Source: an uncultured Lentisphaerota bacterium (GTDB taxonomy: Bacteria; Verrucomicrobiota; Kiritimatiellia; CAIQIC01). Taken from it: 64,000 nucleotides of DNA. The notes under the pieces are model-generated. The model was not told where the DNA came from. It did not search any database and saw only the letters and a list, made by a program, of their open reading frames with translations. The stretch covers positions 1 to 64,000 of the forward strand of contig CAISWQ010000033.1 of the NCBI GenBank assembly GCA_903889245.1, in the 5' to 3' direction. Below, piece after piece: positions 27,429 to 37,665 of the stretch; within the stretch, counting starts at the first letter, position 1, and each line of letters begins with the position of its first letter. The translations under genes were made by a program, and so were the position numbers.

Positions 27429-27937
27429 AGCCATGGCATCCCACCACCGGGTTGCGGCACGCCGCGCTGCTGGTCGGCGCGGTCCTGCTGCTGGCGACGC
27501 TGTTCGCCCAGCTCGAAATCCAGATCGAGGGCGCGCAGGGCTGGGCCGCGGGCCTGCCGACGTGGCGCGTGGAGGATGCGCCCATCCTCAAGCTGTTTTT
27601 CGGCGGCCGCGCGATCACCGGCTACCACGTCTTCGCGTTCAGCTTCATGTTCTGCATCTTCCACCTGCCGCTGGCGATGGTCGGCCATTTCTCGTGGCGC
27701 ATGGAGGCGCGCATCCTCGGCGCGCTGATGCTGTTCTGGATCGTCGAGGACTTTCTCTGGTTCGTGCTGAACCCCGCCTATGGTCTCGCGAAGCTGACGC
27801 CGGCCAACGTGCCGTGGCATCCGCACTGGCTGCTCGGTGTGCCCGTGGACTACCTCGTCTTTACGCTGCTGGCCGCGGCGCTGCTGTGGGCGGCCTATCG
27901 CCACCCGCGCGCGAGCGGTTCGGGAGGAACACCATGA
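27425..27937 (+). CDS. integral membrane protein of unknown function
   Basis: Several hydrophobic segments; ATGA overlap with the preceding gene. Confidence 0.75.
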   Translation: MKPWHPTTGLRHAALLVGAVLLLATLFAQLEIQIEGAQGWAAGLPTWRVEDAPILKLFFGGRAITGYHVFAFSFMFCIFHLPLAMVGHFSWRMEARILGALMLFWIVEDFLWFVLNPAYGLAKLTPANVPWHPHWLLGVPVDYLVFTLLAAALLWAAYRHPRASGSGGTP

Positions 27938-29046
27938 AGCTGCTGATCCTGCACGCCTCGGCCGGCAACGGCCACCGCCGCGCCGCCGAGGCGCTCGCTG
28001 CCGCCGCGCCCGCCGCGGGCCACACCGCCGTCGTGCGCGACATCCTCGACTTCGCGCCCGCGCTGTTCCGCAAGACCTACGCCGAGGGCTACCTCAACAT
28101 CGTCCGCAGCGCGCCGGAACTCTGGGGCTACTTCTACGCGCAGAGCGACCGCAAGGCGCAGCGGCCCGCCGACCGGCGTATCCGCACGGTCTTCAACAAA
28201 CTCAACGCGCACTCGTTCTTCGGCTTCCTGCGTGACGAACAACCCGACGCGGTGGTCTGCACGCACTTCATGCCGCTGGAGATGATCGCCAGCCTGCATC
28301 CGCACCGCCGTCACAACCTGCCGCTCTTCGGCGTCGTCACCGACTACGCCGCGCACGCGCTCTGGTACTGCGACAGCGTCAACGCCTACTACGTGGCCAC
28401 CGAGGACGCGTTGCGCCAGTTGCGCCGCAAGGGCCAGCCCGCCAGCGGCATCGTGCTCACCGGCATCCCGGTGATGCCGGAGTTTTCCACGCGCACCACA
28501 CCCGCGGCGGGCCGCAAGAAACTGGGCCTGCAGTCCAACCTGCCCGCGGTGCTCGTGTTGAGCGGCGGCTACGGCGTCGGCCCGACGGTCGAGATGCTGC
28601 GCGCCTGCGCCGCCGAGCCGCCGCCGTGCCAGTTGCTCGTCGTCGCCGGGAAAAACGCGGAGATGGAACAGGCGGCGAAGGACGCGCTCGCCGGCGCGCA
28701 ACTGCCGGCGCAGGTCTATGGCTTCGTCAACAACGTCCACGAACTGATGGACGCGTGCGAGCTGGTCATCAGCAAGCCCGGCGGCTTGAGCACGGCCGAG
28801 GCGCTGGCCAAGGGCCGGCCGATGATGATCGTCGAGCCGATCCCCGGCCAAGAGCAGCGCAACGCCGAGTGGCTGCTGGAAAACGGCGCGGCCGTCCGGC
28901 TGCATGAGGCCGTGGATACGGCGTGGAAACTCGGCGCGCTGCTCGCCGATCCCCAGCGCCTCGCCGCGCTCGGCGCGCGCGCCGCCGAACTCGGCCGCCC
29001 CGCCGCCGCCGCCGACATCCTCTCAGATCTCGCCCGCCGCGTGTGA
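27934..29046 (+). CDS. MGDG-synthase/processive diacylglycerol glucosyltransferase-like GT28
   Basis: MKLLILHASAGNGHRRAAEALAAA...VISKPGGLSTAEALAKGRPMMIVEPIPGQEQRNA. Confidence 0.85.
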   Translation: MKLLILHASAGNGHRRAAEALAAAAPAAGHTAVVRDILDFAPALFRKTYAEGYLNIVRSAPELWGYFYAQSDRKAQRPADRRIRTVFNKLNAHSFFGFLRDEQPDAVVCTHFMPLEMIASLHPHRRHNLPLFGVVTDYAAHALWYCDSVNAYYVATEDALRQLRRKGQPASGIVLTGIPVMPEFSTRTTPAAGRKKLGLQSNLPAVLVLSGGYGVGPTVEMLRACAAEPPPCQLLVVAGKNAEMEQAAKDALAGAQLPAQVYGFVNNVHELMDACELVISKPGGLSTAEALAKGRPMMIVEPIPGQEQRNAEWLLENGAAVRLHEAVDTAWKLGALLADPQRLAALGARAAELGRPAAAADILSDLARRV

Positions 29047-29070: not shown

Positions 29071-29724
29071 TCAATGCTGATGGCGGATGATGCGGCCCTC
29101 GACGAGATAGATCACATCCTCGGCGATGTTGGTGGCGTGGTCGGCGATGCGTTCGAGGTAGCGCGAGACAGAGAGCAGCGCGATCAGCGAATCCAGATGC
29201 TCCGTGCTCTGGCGGATGACGCCCTTGATGCGCTCGAACGACTGGCGGTTGAGGTTGTCCACCACGTCGTCGTTCGCGCCGACCTGCCGCGCGAGTTTCA
29301 GATCCAGGTTGATCAGCGCGTCGAGGCTCTGCCGCAACATGGACTGGGTCTGCTCGGCGATCTCGGCGAGGTTGAACGGAATGTCGCAGGGTAGTTGGCC
29401 GCACAGGAAGACGGCGCGCTGCGCGATGTTCACCGCCAGGTCGCCAATGCGTTCGAGGTCGTTGTTGAGCTTGAGCACGGCGATGATGAAGCGCAGGTCG
29501 TTGGCCACCGGCTGGTGCAGCGCGAGAATCTTCAGGCACTCCTCCTCGATGCCGACCTCGTTCTGGTCCACGACCGAGTCGCGGTCAATCACACTCTGTG
29601 CCAGCCGGATGTCGCGCTGGGCGACGGCGCGGACGGCCTGGCTCACATCGTCCTCGACCAGCGCGCCGAGGGCGAGGATCTGTTTCTTCAAGTCCGCGAT
29701 TTCGTGTTGGAGATGGACTGACAT
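29071..29724 (-). CDS. phoU: phosphate transport system regulator PhoU
   Basis: Two PhoU helical repeats (LEEDVSQAVRAV-like; NNDLERIGDLAVNIAQRAV; SRYLERIADHATNIAEDVIYLVEG). Confidence 0.93.
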   Translation of the reverse strand: MSVHLQHEIADLKKQILALGALVEDDVSQAVRAVAQRDIRLAQSVIDRDSVVDQNEVGIEEECLKILALHQPVANDLRFIIAVLKLNNDLERIGDLAVNIAQRAVFLCGQLPCDIPFNLAEIAEQTQSMLRQSLDALINLDLKLARQVGANDDVVDNLNRQSFERIKGVIRQSTEHLDSLIALLSVSRYLERIADHATNIAEDVIYLVEGRIIRHQH

Positions 29725-29749: not shown

Positions 29750-31096
29750 TCATGTCCGCAGCTTCCTGGAAATGCGCGCGCGCACGATGATCGCGGCGAG
29801 GTTCAGCAGCAGCACGAGCAGGACGAGGCTGAAGACCATGCCGTACTGGACATGGCGGATTTCGTCCACGGCGACGTGCTCGCTGCACAGGTTGTAGATG
29901 TTCCAGGGCAGCGCGGGCGTCGGCTGCGTGAACGTTTGCAGCAGCGTCAGCGGTTTGCCGACGCTGACGGCGGCGGTGAAGATGATCGGCGCGGTCTCGC
30001 CCGCGGCGCGGCCCATGCTGATGATGACGCCGGTCAGGATGCCGGGCAGGGCGGCGGGCAGGATGACGGACCGGACGGCGTGCCACTGGCCGGCGCCCAG
30101 GCTCAAGGCGGCCTGCTTGTAGGTGGCGGGCACGGCGCGCAGCGCCTCCTCGCTCGCGCGGATGATCGTCGGCAGGATCAGCAGGCCGAGCGTCAGCGAG
30201 CCGGCGAGCACGCTCTTGTTCTCCGAGAGGTGCGCGGCGTTGATGAAGAAGGCCAGGCCGAAGAGGCCGAAGACGATGCTCGGCACGCCGGCGAGCGTGC
30301 TGATGCAGACGCGCAGCACGCGCACGAGCCGGTTTTCGCGGGCATACTCAACCAGGTAAATCGCGGCGATCACGCCCATCGGCACGGCGAACAGGATGGC
30401 GCCCAGCGTCAGGTAGAGCGTGCCGAGCACCTCCGGGCCGATGCCGCCGAAGAAATGCGCGTCGTGCGATGCATCGGTGAGGAACCGGCCGTAGAAGGTC
30501 CATTGCGGACGCAACATCTCGCTGGCGTTTTTTTCGATGGCCGCGAACAACGGCTCCAGCTTGGTGCCGCGGAATTTCTCGAGGCGCGGCTTAAGGACCT
30601 TGCGGCCCAGACCGCCGCCGGAGAAGTCATAGTCCTCGGCGAACAACACCTGCTGGATTTTGACCTGCGCGCGGTCCCAGCGCGTCTGGCCATATTGCGA
30701 GCGCATGAGCAGGGGCGCTTCCTCGCCGGGGAGCGGACCGAGCAGGTCCTTGACGGCGTCCTGCACGGCCGCGAAATCGGTTTTGTATTTTTTGCGCTCG
30801 GCGAACGGCATCGCGTCCAGGTCTTTTTTGAAGGCGGCGAGCGCCGCGAAGACCGGCTGCCGCGCGCGGGCGGCGGCCGCCTGCTCGCGCTTGAGTTCCT
30901 CGCGGTCGCCACGCTGGAATTTCTCCAGCGCGACGCGGCGGAATTCCACGGTGCCCTGGAAAACATAGGCGCTGATGCCGCGCAGGCAGATCGGCGCCAG
31001 CAGGATCAGCAGCGCCGCGGCCAGCAGCACGATGGAGAGGACGCCCATCCCCGTGAACGAGCGGTCGAGCAGCTTGCGGGTGCCGAGGCGGAGCAT
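29750..31096 (-). CDS. pstA: phosphate ABC transporter permease PstA with large inserted periplasmic region
   Basis: LGTLYLTLGAILFAVPMGVIAAIYLVEYA...ISMGRAAGETAPIIFTAA. Confidence 0.9.
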   Translation of the reverse strand: MLRLGTRKLLDRSFTGMGVLSIVLLAAALLILLAPICLRGISAYVFQGTVEFRRVALEKFQRGDREELKREQAAAARARQPVFAALAAFKKDLDAMPFAERKKYKTDFAAVQDAVKDLLGPLPGEEAPLLMRSQYGQTRWDRAQVKIQQVLFAEDYDFSGGGLGRKVLKPRLEKFRGTKLEPLFAAIEKNASEMLRPQWTFYGRFLTDASHDAHFFGGIGPEVLGTLYLTLGAILFAVPMGVIAAIYLVEYARENRLVRVLRVCISTLAGVPSIVFGLFGLAFFINAAHLSENKSVLAGSLTLGLLILPTIIRASEEALRAVPATYKQAALSLGAGQWHAVRSVILPAALPGILTGVIISMGRAAGETAPIIFTAAVSVGKPLTLLQTFTQPTPALPWNIYNLCSEHVAVDEIRHVQYGMVFSLVLLVLLLNLAAIIVRARISRKLRT

Positions 31097-32220
31097 CAGC
31101 GCAGCCTCCGGCGCGTGCGCGCAAGCATGTGCTCGCTGACCAGGTTGCAGACGAGGGAGAAGACCAGCAGGACCAGCGCCATCGCAAACAGCACGTGATA
31201 GTGCGCCGAGCCCGCGCTCTGATCGGCCTCGCCCATGTCGCCGGCGATCGTGGCGGTGAGGGTGCGGACGGGGTCGAGGAAATTGAACCACGGCTCCGGG
31301 ATGCGCGCGGCGTTGCCGGAGGCCATCCAGACGACCATGGTCTCGCCCACGGCGCGCATGATGGCGAGGATGCCCGCGGCGAGGATGCCGCTGCCCGCGG
31401 CCGGGATGACGACCTTGATGAGCGTCTCGGCGCGCGTCGCGCCCAGCGCGTAACTCGCCATACGCAGGTCGCGGCCCGTGGCCTGCAACGCGTCCTCGGC
31501 CACGCTGACCATCGTCGGCAGGGCCATCAGGCCGAGGATGAGCGCGGCGTTGAGCGCGTTCGTGCCGCTGGAGATTTCCAGGCCGTAGAGCAACCGGCCG
31601 GTCTTCCACAGCAGCCAGCCGGCCAGCGCCGCGAGCGCGGCAAACACCACGGCGCGCGCCACGGTGCGCACCTTCTCCGCCAGCCGCGCCGCGGCCAGGT
31701 CGCTGACGACCAGCACGGTCAGGAACACGATGGGCGTGAGGACGAGCCAGAAGGCCCACGCGAGCATCGGTCCGCCGCGCTCCTGTAGCGCGGGTGCAAA
31801 GACGACGAGCGCGAAAAAGCCGTAGGCGACCGAGGGGATCGCCGCGAGCATCTCGACCACGGGCTTCACATATTGCCGGATGTGGAACGGCAGCACGTCG
31901 CTCAAGCAGACCGCGGCGGCGAGGCCGAGCGGGATGGCGACGAGCGCCGCGCCGAGCGTGACCAGCGCGCTGCCGAAGAGGATCGAGAGCGCGCCGAACT
32001 CGGCGGGCTGCCGCGTGGGATACCAGGCCACGCTGCCGAAAAATTCCCGGACGCGTTCCCACGAGGTGAAGAAGGGGAAGGCATCGCGGGCGATGAAAAT
32101 CAGGATGAACACCACCGCCAGCATGGAGAGCGAGGTGACGAGGAGCAGGAAGCCCTCGCCCAACAAGCGCGCCAGCCGCTGGTTGCGGTTGGCCGCGCGG
32201 CTCAACATCAAGGACGACAT
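31096..32220 (-). CDS. pstC: phosphate ABC transporter permease PstC
   Basis: LFGSALVTLGAALVAIPLGLAAAVCLSDV...AIMRAVGETMVVWMASG. Confidence 0.9.
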   Translation of the reverse strand: MSSLMLSRAANRNQRLARLLGEGFLLLVTSLSMLAVVFILIFIARDAFPFFTSWERVREFFGSVAWYPTRQPAEFGALSILFGSALVTLGAALVAIPLGLAAAVCLSDVLPFHIRQYVKPVVEMLAAIPSVAYGFFALVVFAPALQERGGPMLAWAFWLVLTPIVFLTVLVVSDLAAARLAEKVRTVARAVVFAALAALAGWLLWKTGRLLYGLEISSGTNALNAALILGLMALPTMVSVAEDALQATGRDLRMASYALGATRAETLIKVVIPAAGSGILAAGILAIMRAVGETMVVWMASGNAARIPEPWFNFLDPVRTLTATIAGDMGEADQSAGSAHYHVLFAMALVLLVFSLVCNLVSEHMLARTRRRLR

Positions 32221-32496: not shown

Positions 32497-33315
32497 TTAT
32501 TGGACCGGGACGAACCCTTGTTCGGCAACCAGCTTCTTGCCGTCGGCGGCCTTGTAGAGGTTGACGTAGTCGCCGAGGGCGGTGCCGGCGGCCGGCTCGC
32601 CAGCGGTGTACATGAACAGGCCGCGCGAGATCGGATATTTCTTCGCCAGGACATTTTCCGGCGTCGCCTCGATTCCGTTGATGGTCACGGGCTTGAGGCC
32701 CTCGGTGAAGGCGAGGCCGACGTAGCCGATCGCCGCCGGCGTGCTCTGCACGCGCTGGCGGACGGCGCCGTTGCTGCCGACGTACTCGGCGCGGTCGGTG
32801 ATGCGCCCGGCCTTGGTCACCTGCTCGTGGAAGGTCTCGTAGGTGCCGCTGTTGGTGTCGCGGCTGATGACCACGATCTTGAGATTGGGGCCGCCGACCT
32901 CCTGCCAGCTCTTGATCTCGCCGGTGAAGATATCGCGCAGTTGATCCTTGGAGAGGCTCTGCACCGGATTACTGGGGTGCACCACCACGGCGAGGCCATC
33001 GAAGGCGATGGTGTGCTGCACCGGGTTGCGCTTCTTGCCCTTGGCCGCCTCGAGTTCCTCGGTCTTCATGGCGCGCGACAGGGTGCCCACGTCGCAGGCG
33101 CCATTGATGATGCCCTTGGCGCCGTTGCCGCTGCCGGACTCGCTGACGGTGATGTTCACGTCGGGATGCGCCTTCATGTAGTACTCGGCGAACGCCTTGG
33201 CGATCGGGCCGACGGTGGTGGAGCCATCCACCACGATTTTCTTGGGATCGCCGGCCGCCTGCGCGGCGGTAAGCGAGAGGGCCATCAGGCCCGCGATCAG
33301 GATCTGCTTCTTCAT
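32497..33315 (-). CDS. pstS: phosphate-binding protein PstS
   Basis: KIVVDGSTTVGPIAKAFAEYYMKAHPDVNITVSESGSGNGAKGI. Confidence 0.92.
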   Translation of the reverse strand: MKKQILIAGLMALSLTAAQAAGDPKKIVVDGSTTVGPIAKAFAEYYMKAHPDVNITVSESGSGNGAKGIINGACDVGTLSRAMKTEELEAAKGKKRNPVQHTIAFDGLAVVVHPSNPVQSLSKDQLRDIFTGEIKSWQEVGGPNLKIVVISRDTNSGTYETFHEQVTKAGRITDRAEYVGSNGAVRQRVQSTPAAIGYVGLAFTEGLKPVTINGIEATPENVLAKKYPISRGLFMYTAGEPAAGTALGDYVNLYKAADGKKLVAEQGFVPVQ

Positions 33316-33346
33316 GTTCGTTTTCCTTTCGGGTTGTCTGTTCGGT

Positions 33347-34117
33347 TCAACCGAACCGGCCGGTGATGTAATCCTCGGTCCGCTTCTGGGCCGGCTTGGT
33401 GAAAATCTTGTCGGTCTGGTCATATTCCACGAGGTGGCCTTCGTAGAGGAAGGCCGTGTGGTCGGAGACGCGCGAGGCCTGCTGCATGTTATGGGTGACG
33501 ATGATGATCGTGTAGGTGTTGCGCAGTTCGTCTATCAGGTCCTCGATGCGGATGGTGGAGCGCGGGTCGAGCGCCGAGCAGGGTTCATCCATCAGGATGA
33601 TCTCCGGGTTCACGGCGATACAGCGCGCGATGCACAGCCGCTGCATCTGGCCGCCGGAGAGCTGCAGCGCGGAGGTGTGCAGGCGGTCCTTGACCTCGTC
33701 CCACAGCGCCGCGCTGGTCAGGCTTTTCTCGACGACCTCGTCGAGCAGACTCTTGTCCTTCACGCCCTGGATGCGCAGGCCGTAGATCACGTTTTCGTAG
33801 ATGGTTTTCGGGAACGGATTGGATTTCTGGAAGACCATGCCGACGCGTCGCCGGAGTTGGATCACGTCCACGCCCGGCTGGTTGAGGTTCTCGCCTTCCA
33901 GCTCGATCCGCCCGGTCGTGCGGACGCCGTCCACCAAGTCGTTCATCCGGTTGAGCGCGCGCAGCAGGGTGGACTTGCCGCAGCCGGAGGGGCCGATCAG
34001 GGCGATGACCTGCTGGCGCGGGAAGTCCATGGTCACCTCATGCACGGCCTGGACGCGGCCATAGAAGATGCTCACGTCGTGGAGCCTGACGATGGGTTGG
34101 GAAGGCGCCGTATTCAT
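33347..34117 (-). CDS. pstB: phosphate ABC transporter ATPase PstB
   Basis: Walker [54 protein letters not shown]. Confidence 0.95.
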
Positions 34118-34461
34118 CAGCACATTTCCATCAAGGCCGTGCGCAAATCGCGCGTGGAAAGGGCCCGCTGGCGGCGCAACTCGGCCTGCCAGCGATAGCG
34201 GCTGTCTTCCGCAGTGCGCCAGCGCCAGAAGTCGAGATCGGGCAAGGCGCCCGGCGCGCGGCCGACCGGCCGCAGCACCTCGACCACGCCGCCGGCTTCC
34301 AGGCGCGCGAGGCAGCAGCGGACCACCTGTTCCTCGACGCCCAGCCACTCGGCGATCTCGCCGGCGCGCACCGCGGCGCGTTGTTGCAGGAAATAGCTGA
34401 CGCGCGACTGCCAGTGCTCCGGCTGGAGCTGACTGCGACTGTCTGGCGTTTCCTGGATCAT
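34117..34461 (-). CDS. small winged-helix-like protein in the pst operon
   Basis: [33 protein letters not shown]; stop overlaps the pstB start. Confidence 0.65.
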
Positions 34462-34513: not shown

Positions 34514-35656
34514 TTAGAACTTGGCGAGGATATCTATGATGAACTCCTTGTACTCCAGCGGAGTCTCGCCGGCAGCGATATTTTTCTCGGTGAGCCAGCA
34601 GGTGCCGCACAGTTGCAGGTTCTTCATGAGCTGATAGACGAAGGTGATCTTGTGACCCTTGCCATCGGTGCCGCCGCCCCAGGCGTCGTCATCGGGCAGG
34701 TTGCCGGGGAAGACGTCCTTGTCGAGGTGGCGGTAATCATAACCGACCTGGAACGTGCCGGGGTCGGAGGCCTTGCCGAGCAGCACGCCCACCGTCCAGC
34801 CCTGGTTGTTGCTGCTGGGGTCGGTGTTTTTGGAGTAAGCGCCGAAGGCCGTCACGGGGATGCCGATCTTGGTGCCGGCTTCAACAAAGCCTTCCAAAAC
34901 CTTGTACTCGTTCGCATAGACATTGTTGGTCGTCGTGCCGGAAATCTGCTTCGTGACCGTGTTGCCCCAGGCGTTGTTGTTGTGCTGCCAGTCCAGGACT
35001 TGGAAGCCCTGCATGTTCTGGAAGCCGTAGTAGCTGCCGCCCACCAGAATATGGTTGTCGGCGTTGGGCTTGAAGTTCACCGCCACCTGGCCGGCGTAGA
35101 GCCGCGTATCGTCGGAGGTCGAGCGCTCCTTCAGCCATTGATAGGACGCGTTGGCGAGCAACTGTACTTCATCGCCGACGCGATATTTCGCGGCCAGCCC
35201 TTCCGGCGCGATGTCGGGATCCCAGAGGTAGGTATTCACGAGGAAGAACGGATTCGCCATTTTGCCGCCGATCACATGGAGGCCGGGGATCGCGCCCGGG
35301 TGATAATCAAGGTAGCCCTGATCAAGATAGAGCGCCTTCTGCGTGTACTGGTCGGTCAGCGTCTGGTTCTCCGACACCGGATTGCCTTCGCCCGGCGCGC
35401 CGCTCACCGACATCGCTGTACCGAGCCGGAGGCCCACGGTCACATCCTCGTTGATGTCGGTCTTGGCGCCCAGCCGCGCGCGGATGCGTTCCCGCTCGCG
35501 GTTCGGCTGGCCTTCCAGTTGAATCACGTCGAAGCGATACCGCATGTCGCCCGACAGCTTCAGGCTGTCGTACCATTTCACTTCCTCGCCGTGCGCCAGT
35601 TGGAAGCTGCCCGCCGCCACCAGCGCCACCATCCACTTCGTGTACTGTGTGTTCAT
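34514..35656 (-). CDS. putative porin associated with phosphate uptake
   Basis: MNTQYTKWMVALVAAGSFQLAHG signal; SLKLSGDMRYRFDVIQ beta-barrel pattern, terminal Phe. Confidence 0.75.
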   Translation of the reverse strand: MNTQYTKWMVALVAAGSFQLAHGEEVKWYDSLKLSGDMRYRFDVIQLEGQPNRERERIRARLGAKTDINEDVTVGLRLGTAMSVSGAPGEGNPVSENQTLTDQYTQKALYLDQGYLDYHPGAIPGLHVIGGKMANPFFLVNTYLWDPDIAPEGLAAKYRVGDEVQLLANASYQWLKERSTSDDTRLYAGQVAVNFKPNADNHILVGGSYYGFQNMQGFQVLDWQHNNNAWGNTVTKQISGTTTNNVYANEYKVLEGFVEAGTKIGIPVTAFGAYSKNTDPSSNNQGWTVGVLLGKASDPGTFQVGYDYRHLDKDVFPGNLPDDDAWGGGTDGKGHKITFVYQLMKNLQLCGTCWLTEKNIAAGETPLEYKEFIIDILAKF

Positions 35657-35759
35657 ATTTTCCCTTTCCTTTGTTGCCATCGCCACGCGGCGTTTGCGCC
35701 GCCCGCTCATTGCTGGACCCAGTGCGTCCAAAAACCGGGGACAGTGTCGTCGGCGATCA

Positions 35760-35796
35760 TTAGCGCCGTGTGAGCGACCCGTGAGAAGTTGGTCAG
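35760..35796 (-). promoter_or_regulatory. Pho-box-like 11-bp direct-repeat array upstream of the porin-pst operon
   Basis: Minus strand: CTGACCAACTT CTCACGGGTCG CTCACACGGCG CTAA, exact 11-bp period. Confidence 0.7.
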
Positions 35797-35802
35797 CCGT
35801 TC

Positions 35803-35844
35803 CCGGCCTTGGAAAAACGCTGCTGAAATTTTCCAAGCCTTGGG
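35803..35844. repeat. palindrome cluster, 2 units
   Basis: cccggccttggaaaaa...aattttccaagccttggg. Confidence 0.75.
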
Positions 35845-35879
35845 CCAACCGGGAAGACACCGTTCCACTCCCGGGACCA

Positions 35880-36950
35880 TCAGGGGAACAACATCAGGAG
35901 GCGCTCGCACCAGTAGGCGAGGAGGGCGGTGATCGGGATGGTCAGCACCCAGGCCCAGACCATGCGGCCGACGATGCCCCACTTGACCGCGCTCAAGCGC
36001 TTGGTCGCGCCGACGCCCATGATGGAGCTGGAGATGACGTGCGTGGTTGAGAGCGGGATGCCCCAGTGACTCGCGCAGAGGATGATGGTGGCGGCGGTGG
36101 TCTCGCTGGCAAAACCATGGACCGGTTGCAGCCGCACCATCTTGTGGCCAAGCGTGCGGATGATGCGCCAGCCGCCGGCGGCCGTGCCCGCCGCCATCGT
36201 CAGGGCGCAGACGATCTTGACCCACATGGCGACCTTGAATTCGGGCGTGTACAGGAATTGCAGCCAGGTGGGCAAATCCTTGAACGCATCGGTCTTGCTC
36301 GCGCTGAACAGGATGAGCGCGATGATGCCCATCGTCTTTTGCGCATCGTTGGTCCCGTGGCTGAAGCCCATCACGCCGGCGCTGACGATCTGCAGCTTGC
36401 CGAAGATGGCATTGACGATACGCGGGCGCCACCGCTTGATGAGGATCATCAGCAGGGCCATGATGAAAAACCCAACGAGGATGCCGACGACCGGCGAGGT
36501 GAACATAGGCAGGAGCACCTTGGGCCACAGCCCGCCGGTCACCTTGTGCGTCACCGGCTCAAAGGTTTCCCAGTGAATCACCGCCCAGTTGCTGTGCGCG
36601 TTGGCCAGCGTGCTGCCGCACAGGCCCCCGACGAGCGCATGGCTGGAACTGGAGGGCAGGCCGAGCCACCACGTCAGCAGGTTCCAGATAATCGCGCCCA
36701 GCAGCGCGCTGAAGATCACCTGCGTATTGACGAAGCCGGTATCCACCAGCCCCTTGCCGATGGTCGTGGCCACAGCCGTACCCCAGAGCGCGCCGAGCAA
36801 ATTGAACCCGGCGGCCCACAGGATCGCCTGGCGCGGCGTCAGCACCTTGGTGGAGACGGTGGTGGCGATCGAGTTGGCGGTGTCGTGGAACCCGTTGATG
36901 TACTCGAACACCAGCGCGACGAGAATGACGGTGAGGATCAGGAGCAGCAT
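35880..36950 (-). CDS. inorganic phosphate transporter, Pit family
   Basis: FEYINGFHDTANSIATTVSTKVLTPRQAI; GLPSSSSHALVGGLCG; FSHGTNDAQKTMGII. Confidence 0.95.
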   Translation of the reverse strand: MLLLILTVILVALVFEYINGFHDTANSIATTVSTKVLTPRQAILWAAGFNLLGALWGTAVATTIGKGLVDTGFVNTQVIFSALLGAIIWNLLTWWLGLPSSSSHALVGGLCGSTLANAHSNWAVIHWETFEPVTHKVTGGLWPKVLLPMFTSPVVGILVGFFIMALLMILIKRWRPRIVNAIFGKLQIVSAGVMGFSHGTNDAQKTMGIIALILFSASKTDAFKDLPTWLQFLYTPEFKVAMWVKIVCALTMAAGTAAGGWRIIRTLGHKMVRLQPVHGFASETTAATIILCASHWGIPLSTTHVISSSIMGVGATKRLSAVKWGIVGRMVWAWVLTIPITALLAYWCERLLMLFP

Positions 36951-36961
36951 GGTGACCAGTT

Positions 36962-37591
36962 TCAGATGTATTTGAGGACGACGCGGAAGAGGACGCTGCC
37001 GGCATCACGGTGCCGGTCCATGATCTTTTCCAGCGTTTCATAGAGATCCAGCGCCATGATGACCTGTAGCGGCCCCAGTTGCCCGTTGTGCAGTTCACGG
37101 ATGTGCGCGAGCATGAGCTTATCGGCCTGGCCCTCGAGCGCCTGCAGCCGGGTGTGCTGCTCCTTGATGGCCGCGAGATTTTTCCGCAGCCGCAACTCGC
37201 GCACCATCTGCGGAATGATCTCCGCCGCCTGCTCCAACAGACCGAGTTGCGGCGCGAAATCAAGCGTCCCCAGCGCCGCCTTGCAACACATGAATTTCTC
37301 GCTGAATTTTTCCACGGTCTTGGGGATTTTATAGAGGGCCACCGACAACGCCTCGATATCTTCGCGCTCCAGCGGCGTGACGAACGTCTTGCATAACTCC
37401 TCCGTGATCTGCTCCGTGATGAGTTTGTCCTTGCGCCGCGCCTCCATGAAGTCGGCCACGGTCGGCCCATCCGGCTTCGCGCGCAACAGCGCCGCCAGCA
37501 TCTGGATGCTGCGCCGGGCGTCGTGGGCCCCGGTTTCGAGCAGGTCGAAGAACTTGTCGTCCTTCCCGATCAGTTTGTTGATGATGTTCAT
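36962..37591 (-). CDS. DUF47 family Pit-accessory protein
   Basis: KFFDLLETGAHDARRSIQML...FVTPLEREDIEALSVALYKI. Confidence 0.9.
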   Translation of the reverse strand: MNIINKLIGKDDKFFDLLETGAHDARRSIQMLAALLRAKPDGPTVADFMEARRKDKLITEQITEELCKTFVTPLEREDIEALSVALYKIPKTVEKFSEKFMCCKAALGTLDFAPQLGLLEQAAEIIPQMVRELRLRKNLAAIKEQHTRLQALEGQADKLMLAHIRELHNGQLGPLQVIMALDLYETLEKIMDRHRDAGSVLFRVVLKYI

Positions 37592-37631
37592 GGTTTGATC
37601 CCGCCGCGGATAGGCTCGCCCACCTTTGTTA

Positions 37632-37665
37632 GAATTGTGTGAGCGCCGCGTGAGAAGTCGGTCAG
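37632..37665 (-). promoter_or_regulatory. Pho-box-like 11-bp direct-repeat array upstream of the DUF47-pit operon
   Basis: Minus strand: CTGACCGACTT CTCACGCGGCG CTCACACAATT CTAA, aligns with 35760-35796. Confidence 0.7.

Follow-up and report, generated by a model that had tools for sequence, protein, structure and literature searches.

Introduction

In Escherichia coli the PhoB box consists of several tandem 11-nt direct repeats of the CTGTCAT type before pst and other phosphate genes (PMC4415409, PMC1906773). About 10 bp separate the box from the downstream -10 element (PMC1906773), and in the PhoB-DNA complex Arg201 specifically hydrogen-bonds a guanine (PMC3973317). The PHO box of the Streptomyces coelicolor regulator PhoP is likewise made of 11-nt direct repeats, with a GTTCACC core (PMC4415409). 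In Streptomyces, the promoter of pitH2 has four repeat units for PhoP and depends on PhoP for its activity, and pitH1 is without PHO boxes (PMC7866108). The cyanobacterial SphR box has at least three tandem 8-bp units, CTTAACCT, with a 3-bp linker and hence an 11-bp period (PMC1906773). Mycobacterium tuberculosis PhoP, described as a virulence regulator and not as a phosphate-starvation regulator, recognises TCACAGC repeats with a strict 4-bp spacer, and its cooperative binding reaches three and four motifs (PMC4832192). A literature search of incomplete coverage found no paper describing a Pho box in the lineage studied here.

Here we analyse two repeat arrays, A and B, in a 64,000-nt stretch of DNA from an uncultured Lentisphaerota bacterium (hereafter the window). 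They share the tandem 11-nt repeats and the phosphate genes downstream with the E. coli box, but the half-site consensus is (C/T)TnAC(a) rather than CTGTCAT and the candidate regulator, a PhoB encoded on contig C79, has Ser in place of Arg201. This half-site resembles those of the Streptomyces, Mycobacterium and cyanobacterial boxes: GTTCACC is near the TTCAC/CTCAC found here, and TCACA is common to the M. tuberculosis repeat and to unit 3. Unlike the box of the actinobacterial S. coelicolor PhoP, the arrays here consist mainly of CTCAC, CTGAC and CTAAC units and have a predicted -10 hexamer at a fixed 15 bp from the start of unit 4. The SphR box differs in its TTAAC core, and SphR reportedly keeps the DNA-contacting residues of E. 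coli PhoB whereas the C79 PhoB does not.

Two four-unit arrays upstream of phosphate operons

Array A reads CTGACCAACTT CTCACGGGTCG CTCACACGGCG CTAATGAT on the minus strand, from 35796 down to 35756, and array B reads CTGACCGACTT CTCACGCGGCG CTCACACAATT CTAACAAA on the same strand, from 37665 down to 37625. The original prediction had described two matching sites of exact 11-bp period with a half-site unlike E. coli CTGTCAT. Both of its sequences were found letter for letter on the minus strand, the period holds through four units in each array, and the difference from E. coli was borne out, the units being CTGAC, CTCAC and CTAAC. Across the aligned sites unit 4 is mostly CTAAC or CTAAT. As in known Pho boxes, both arrays are formed of 11-nt direct repeats (about 7 conserved positions plus 4 less conserved) in at least two units. 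CTGTCAT itself was not found in either, which excludes the E. coli subtype only, because Pho-box consensus sequences are known to differ from one species to another (PMC4415409). The arrays are identical at 30/38 bases, against background levels of 27/100 in the upstream flank and 34/102 in the downstream flank. Since the flanks are unrelated while the arrays match, A and B are not one duplicated segment. Short interspersed palindromes of TTTTCCAAG / CTTGGAAAA occur in intergenic DNA of the window at ~35810-35850 (adjoining array A), at 26530-26570 and in other stretches.

Phosphate-acquisition genes lie downstream of the array at porin-pst-phoU and DUF47-pit (Table 1) and at phoB, and likewise in relatives. 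Pfam matches agree with the predicted gene order, with A before the porin and pst-phoU genes and B before DUF47-pit; the second gene, labelled wHTH in the original prediction, has a 114-aa product with no Pfam or NCBIfam match. This small protein is kept beside pstB or the porin in relatives, between porin and pstB in several, and may be an extra regulator of the porin-pst operon.

Adjoining phoU, the plus strand at 26559-29046 encodes an LpxH/PlcP-like metallophosphoesterase, a membrane protein and a diglucosyl-diacylglycerol-synthase-like glycosyltransferase, likely a phospholipid-replacement operon. Starvation is known to elicit the replacement of phospholipids by way of PlcP and glycosyltransferases (PMC4796936). 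No Pho-box array was found at this operon in the window, though its copies in the relatives G002 and G003 have one.

Table 1. Predicted regulatory elements and genes of the two phosphate loci in the window.
Feature	Position	Strand	Basis
Array A, predicted PhoB operator of porin-wHTH-pstBSCA-phoU	35753..35796	-	kept before porin, 6/6 family genomes
Array A units, 11 bp each	35796-35786, 35785-35775, 35774-35764, 35763-35753	-	
Predicted -10 hexamer GACACT, promoter A	35743..35748	-	nAnnnT offset, 15/17 sites
Porin (Porin_5), first gene after array A	34514..35656	-	Pfam PF16930, E 8.7e-36
Small protein ('wHTH' of the original prediction), second gene	34117..34461	-	open reading frame
pstB	33347..34213	-	TIGR00972 above curated cut-off, 401 bits
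pstS	32497..33321	-	PBP_like_2, E 1.1e-43
pstC	31096..32220	-	BPD_transp_1 and gene order
pstA	29750..31075	-	BPD_transp_1 and gene order
phoU	29071..29724	-	PF01895, E 2e-45
Array B, predicted PhoB operator of DUF47-pit	37622..37665	-	three-unit array at G004 orthologue
Array B units, 11 bp each	37665-37655, 37654-37644, 37643-37633, 37632-37622	-	
Possible -10 hexamer GAGCCT, promoter B	37612..37617	-	offset inferred; weak consensus match
DUF47 (PhoU_div) gene	36962..37591	-	PF01865, E 6.1e-07, above cut-off
pit, PHO4-family phosphate transporter	35880..36950	-	PF01384, E 9.4e-97

Occurrence in the genome

In the 5.26-Mb genome, A and B are the only two exact matches to (CTSACN6)2CTSAC, and the reversed control has none; from base composition (66% GC), about 0.09 occurrences of this three-unit pattern are expected by chance. 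With up to two mismatches allowed, the three-unit pattern gave 24 matches genome-wide against 21 in the control, which is background beyond A and B. The signal thus sits in A and B and not in a broad set of near-matches. A degenerate four-unit pattern with one mismatch recovered A, B and the phoB promoter, plus one site with no apparent relation to them, against 4 hits in the control.

A sequence profile was built from 14 sites, all from other genomes, and run on the whole genome. At E values up to 10 it picked out A (E 4.2e-7), B (E 2.5e-7) and, individually weak in this leave-own-out search, the phoB promoter (E 0.14), and nothing else. The genome-wide profile search gave no further strong copies beyond porin-pst, DUF47-pit and phoBR. 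Moreover, A and B scored 45 bits with a matrix trained on other genomes, and the next-best position in the window reached 5. Because the sites used to train this matrix had initially been picked out for resembling A and B, the weight of the evidence falls on the reversed-sequence and whole-genome controls.

Conservation in relatives

The comparison took in five more genomes from the family and another 22 from the order; the DNA around pst and DUF47 genes was scanned for units at 11-bp spacing. Across 301 kb of pst and DUF47 loci, 48 positions scored above 14 bits compared with 0 in reversed sequence, and most of them lie ~150 bp or less upstream of a phosphate gene. Besides the porin promoter of all six family genomes, arrays precede phoB within the genus and pstS, pstB or phoB in other families; the exact pattern is also present in another genus, between phoR and pstB. 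The phoB promoters of G004 and G005 carry arrays followed by the same hexamer, and that of G003 carries a weaker array; none of these three contributed to the training set. In G002 the porin-pst gene cluster itself contains phoBR, flanked by two arrays.

The orthologue of the window's DUF47-pit in G004 (79% identical) has a three-unit array. A paralogous DUF47-pit (60-65% identical), found on contig C18 of the same genome and in G001-G005, has no array reading towards it; in G001 this paralogue stands back to back with an array-bearing pstS. The array-less paralogue is a within-genome control for the Pho-box reading, and the two kinds of copy parallel Streptomyces pitH2 and pitH1 (PMC7866108).

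Arrays in relatives also precede the plcP-like metallophosphoesterase operon (G002, G003) and an acyltransferase-like gene. In three congeneric genomes (L076:2781, L078:10986, L080:9126) the acyltransferase-like gene lies just upstream of the porin and has its own partial Pho-type array, with CCAAT/ACAAC as unit 1, followed by TTAAC/CTAAC and CTCAC. This gene possibly belongs to ornithine-lipid or lysophospholipid metabolism.

Further afield, an exact four-unit match was found in 43 of 388 genomes of the phylum. Fourteen genomes of the same class match, and in nine the next gene, named partly by eye, is a porin, pstS, DUF47, phoU, plcP-like or phosphonatase-like gene. The reversed control matches in seven genomes of this class, so part of the remaining same-class matches is background. 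In other classes of the phylum, similar four-unit arrays precede a VWA-domain gene and then a membrane protein gene, and the geometry alone is therefore not specific for phosphate. These arrays (L138, L140, L141, L147, L150-L153) have CTGACA or TTTACA at 11-bp steps, before a VWA-domain secreted protein and a membrane sensor-like gene, and are probably the operator of a different OmpR-family system.

An exact scan of GTDB with a stricter pattern gave 17 stretches. Among them were two relatives from the family (the uncultured Lentisphaerae MAGs Loclat_bin-07389 and AlinenSedimentsCore2_bin-2051), one Phycisphaerales pstS promoter and one porin-like Desulfatitalea gene. Every other stretch either was a simple tandem repeat of 11 bp (five of them from Niastella soli) or lay in an unrelated context, and was set aside. 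The N. soli repeats (L103, L107, L109, L110, L115) are of the form CT(A/C)ACAGGGAC, some then with an inverted copy; this repeat family resembles the pattern, with no sign of an association with phosphate genes.

The candidate PhoB regulator and predicted promoter layout

The genome encodes four Trans_reg_C (OmpR/PhoB) regulators. One of them, encoded on contig C79, has a sensor kinase gene after it, the two forming a phoB-phoR pair. The best NCBIfam match of the regulator is TIGR02154 PhoB (248 bits, below the curated cut-off of 296) and that of the kinase is PnpS, with PhoR also matching, both below curated cut-offs. The genome holds a pair of the PhoB-PhoR type, though one below the equivalog cut-offs.

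We compared the C79 PhoB with the E. coli effector domain, using a reference sequence confirmed against PDB 1qqi/1gxp. Arg193, Val197 and Arg203 are kept, while His198 is replaced by Gln, Arg200 by Val and Arg201 by Ser; in the PhoB of relatives residue 201 is Asn or Gly. The altered recognition helix is consistent with the altered half-site, and the one may follow from the other.

Of 17 aligned related sites, 15 have a hexamer nAnnnT whose first base lies 15 bp from the start of unit 4. At other offsets the hexamer occurs in at most three sites each, except for one offset, with seven, that overlaps unit 4 itself. The gap between unit 4 and the -10 is 8 bp when counted from the 7-mer as written, or 10 bp with the TCA core aligned to CTGTCAT, so that the arrays hold a fixed position ~10 bp upstream of the predicted -10. 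Transcription is predicted to begin near 35736 at promoter A and near 37605 at promoter B. Given the constant offset of nAnnnT and this E. coli-like gap, the final CTAA, which had been suggested as possibly part of the -10 element, is best read as the repeat unit nearest to it. That suggestion was rejected: CTAA is the fourth unit and the -10-like hexamer lies downstream.

Discussion

We conclude, with a probability of roughly 0.9, that arrays A and B are Pho boxes, operators of the C79-encoded PhoB, which under phosphate starvation would activate the porin-pst operon, phoBR and most likely DUF47-pit. Judged from sequence, the evidence for a Pho-box pair is strong, PhoB binding is very likely, and phosphate dependence is predicted. 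The original prediction of a Pho box is supported, binding itself being predicted. It had named two outcomes as refuting, a random-level frequency of the motif and its absence before other phosphate genes, and neither was seen: the motif is far above chance, and copies of it stand before other phosphate genes. The last point holds for phoB in this genome and for porin, pstS, pstB, phoB, DUF47 and phoU in relatives; it does not extend to further strong copies here. On these grounds the A/B pair is a real, lineage-specific version of the well-known Pho box.

In the proposed mechanism, phosphate starvation would cause PhoR to phosphorylate PhoB. Tandem head-to-tail PhoB effector domains would then fill the four 11-bp units on the same helix face, each reading a (C/T)TnAC(a) core. 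Unit 4 would occupy the -35 position, 8-10 bp upstream of a weak -10, where bound PhoB could recruit RNA polymerase. The recruited polymerase would switch on porin-wHTH-pstBSCA-phoU from array A, most likely DUF47-pit from array B, and phoBR itself. We infer both the co-transcription of these genes and activation instead of repression, the latter especially at DUF47-pit.

At DUF47-pit the sign of regulation may be either, given that pit is down under phosphate stress in Sinorhizobium meliloti (PMC8829014). PhoB at B could thus shut off a low-affinity transporter in starvation while activating at A, and the -10 of promoter B is weak. We consider this split unlikely: array B equals array A in layout, strand and distance to the predicted -10, and the four PhoP units of pitH2 serve a promoter that requires PhoP, in a genus whose pitH1 has none (PMC7866108). 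Much less probable still is binding by another OmpR/PhoB-family regulator instead of the C79 PhoB. Three other Trans_reg_C regulators are encoded in the genome, and OmpR-family regulators generally bind direct repeats with similar spacing (PMC4832192), yet the only other strong genomic site is the promoter of the C79 phoBR itself and the G002 phoBR sits between two arrays within the porin-pst cluster. Finally, a chance match or the recent copying of a single short segment, which the mere two copies 1.9 kb apart on one contig might suggest, has next to no probability, being at odds with the expected count and the flank identities given above and refuted by the arrays kept at matching promoters in other genera and families.

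Taking A and B as Pho boxes of the C79 PhoB, we tentatively propose, at somewhat less than even odds, a further step. A PhoB without Arg201 may have co-evolved with the four-unit (C/T)TnAC(a) box and may directly control a very small core regulon (porin-pst, one of the two DUF47-pit copies and phoBR), in relatives extended to membrane-lipid genes.

The comparison yields a multi-genus consensus of four (C/T)TnACa units at 11-bp steps, followed by a predicted -10 whose first base lies fifteen bases downstream of the first base of unit 4. This consensus is usable to find the phosphate-starvation regulon in uncultured Lentisphaerae/Verrucomicrobiota-type bacteria. Moreover, the system would be a naturally occurring case in which a response regulator departs from the E. 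coli one both in the helix that reads the bases and in the DNA that it recognises. Within one genome, the array sets apart a Pit that is probably phosphate-controlled from a Pit that is probably uncontrolled.
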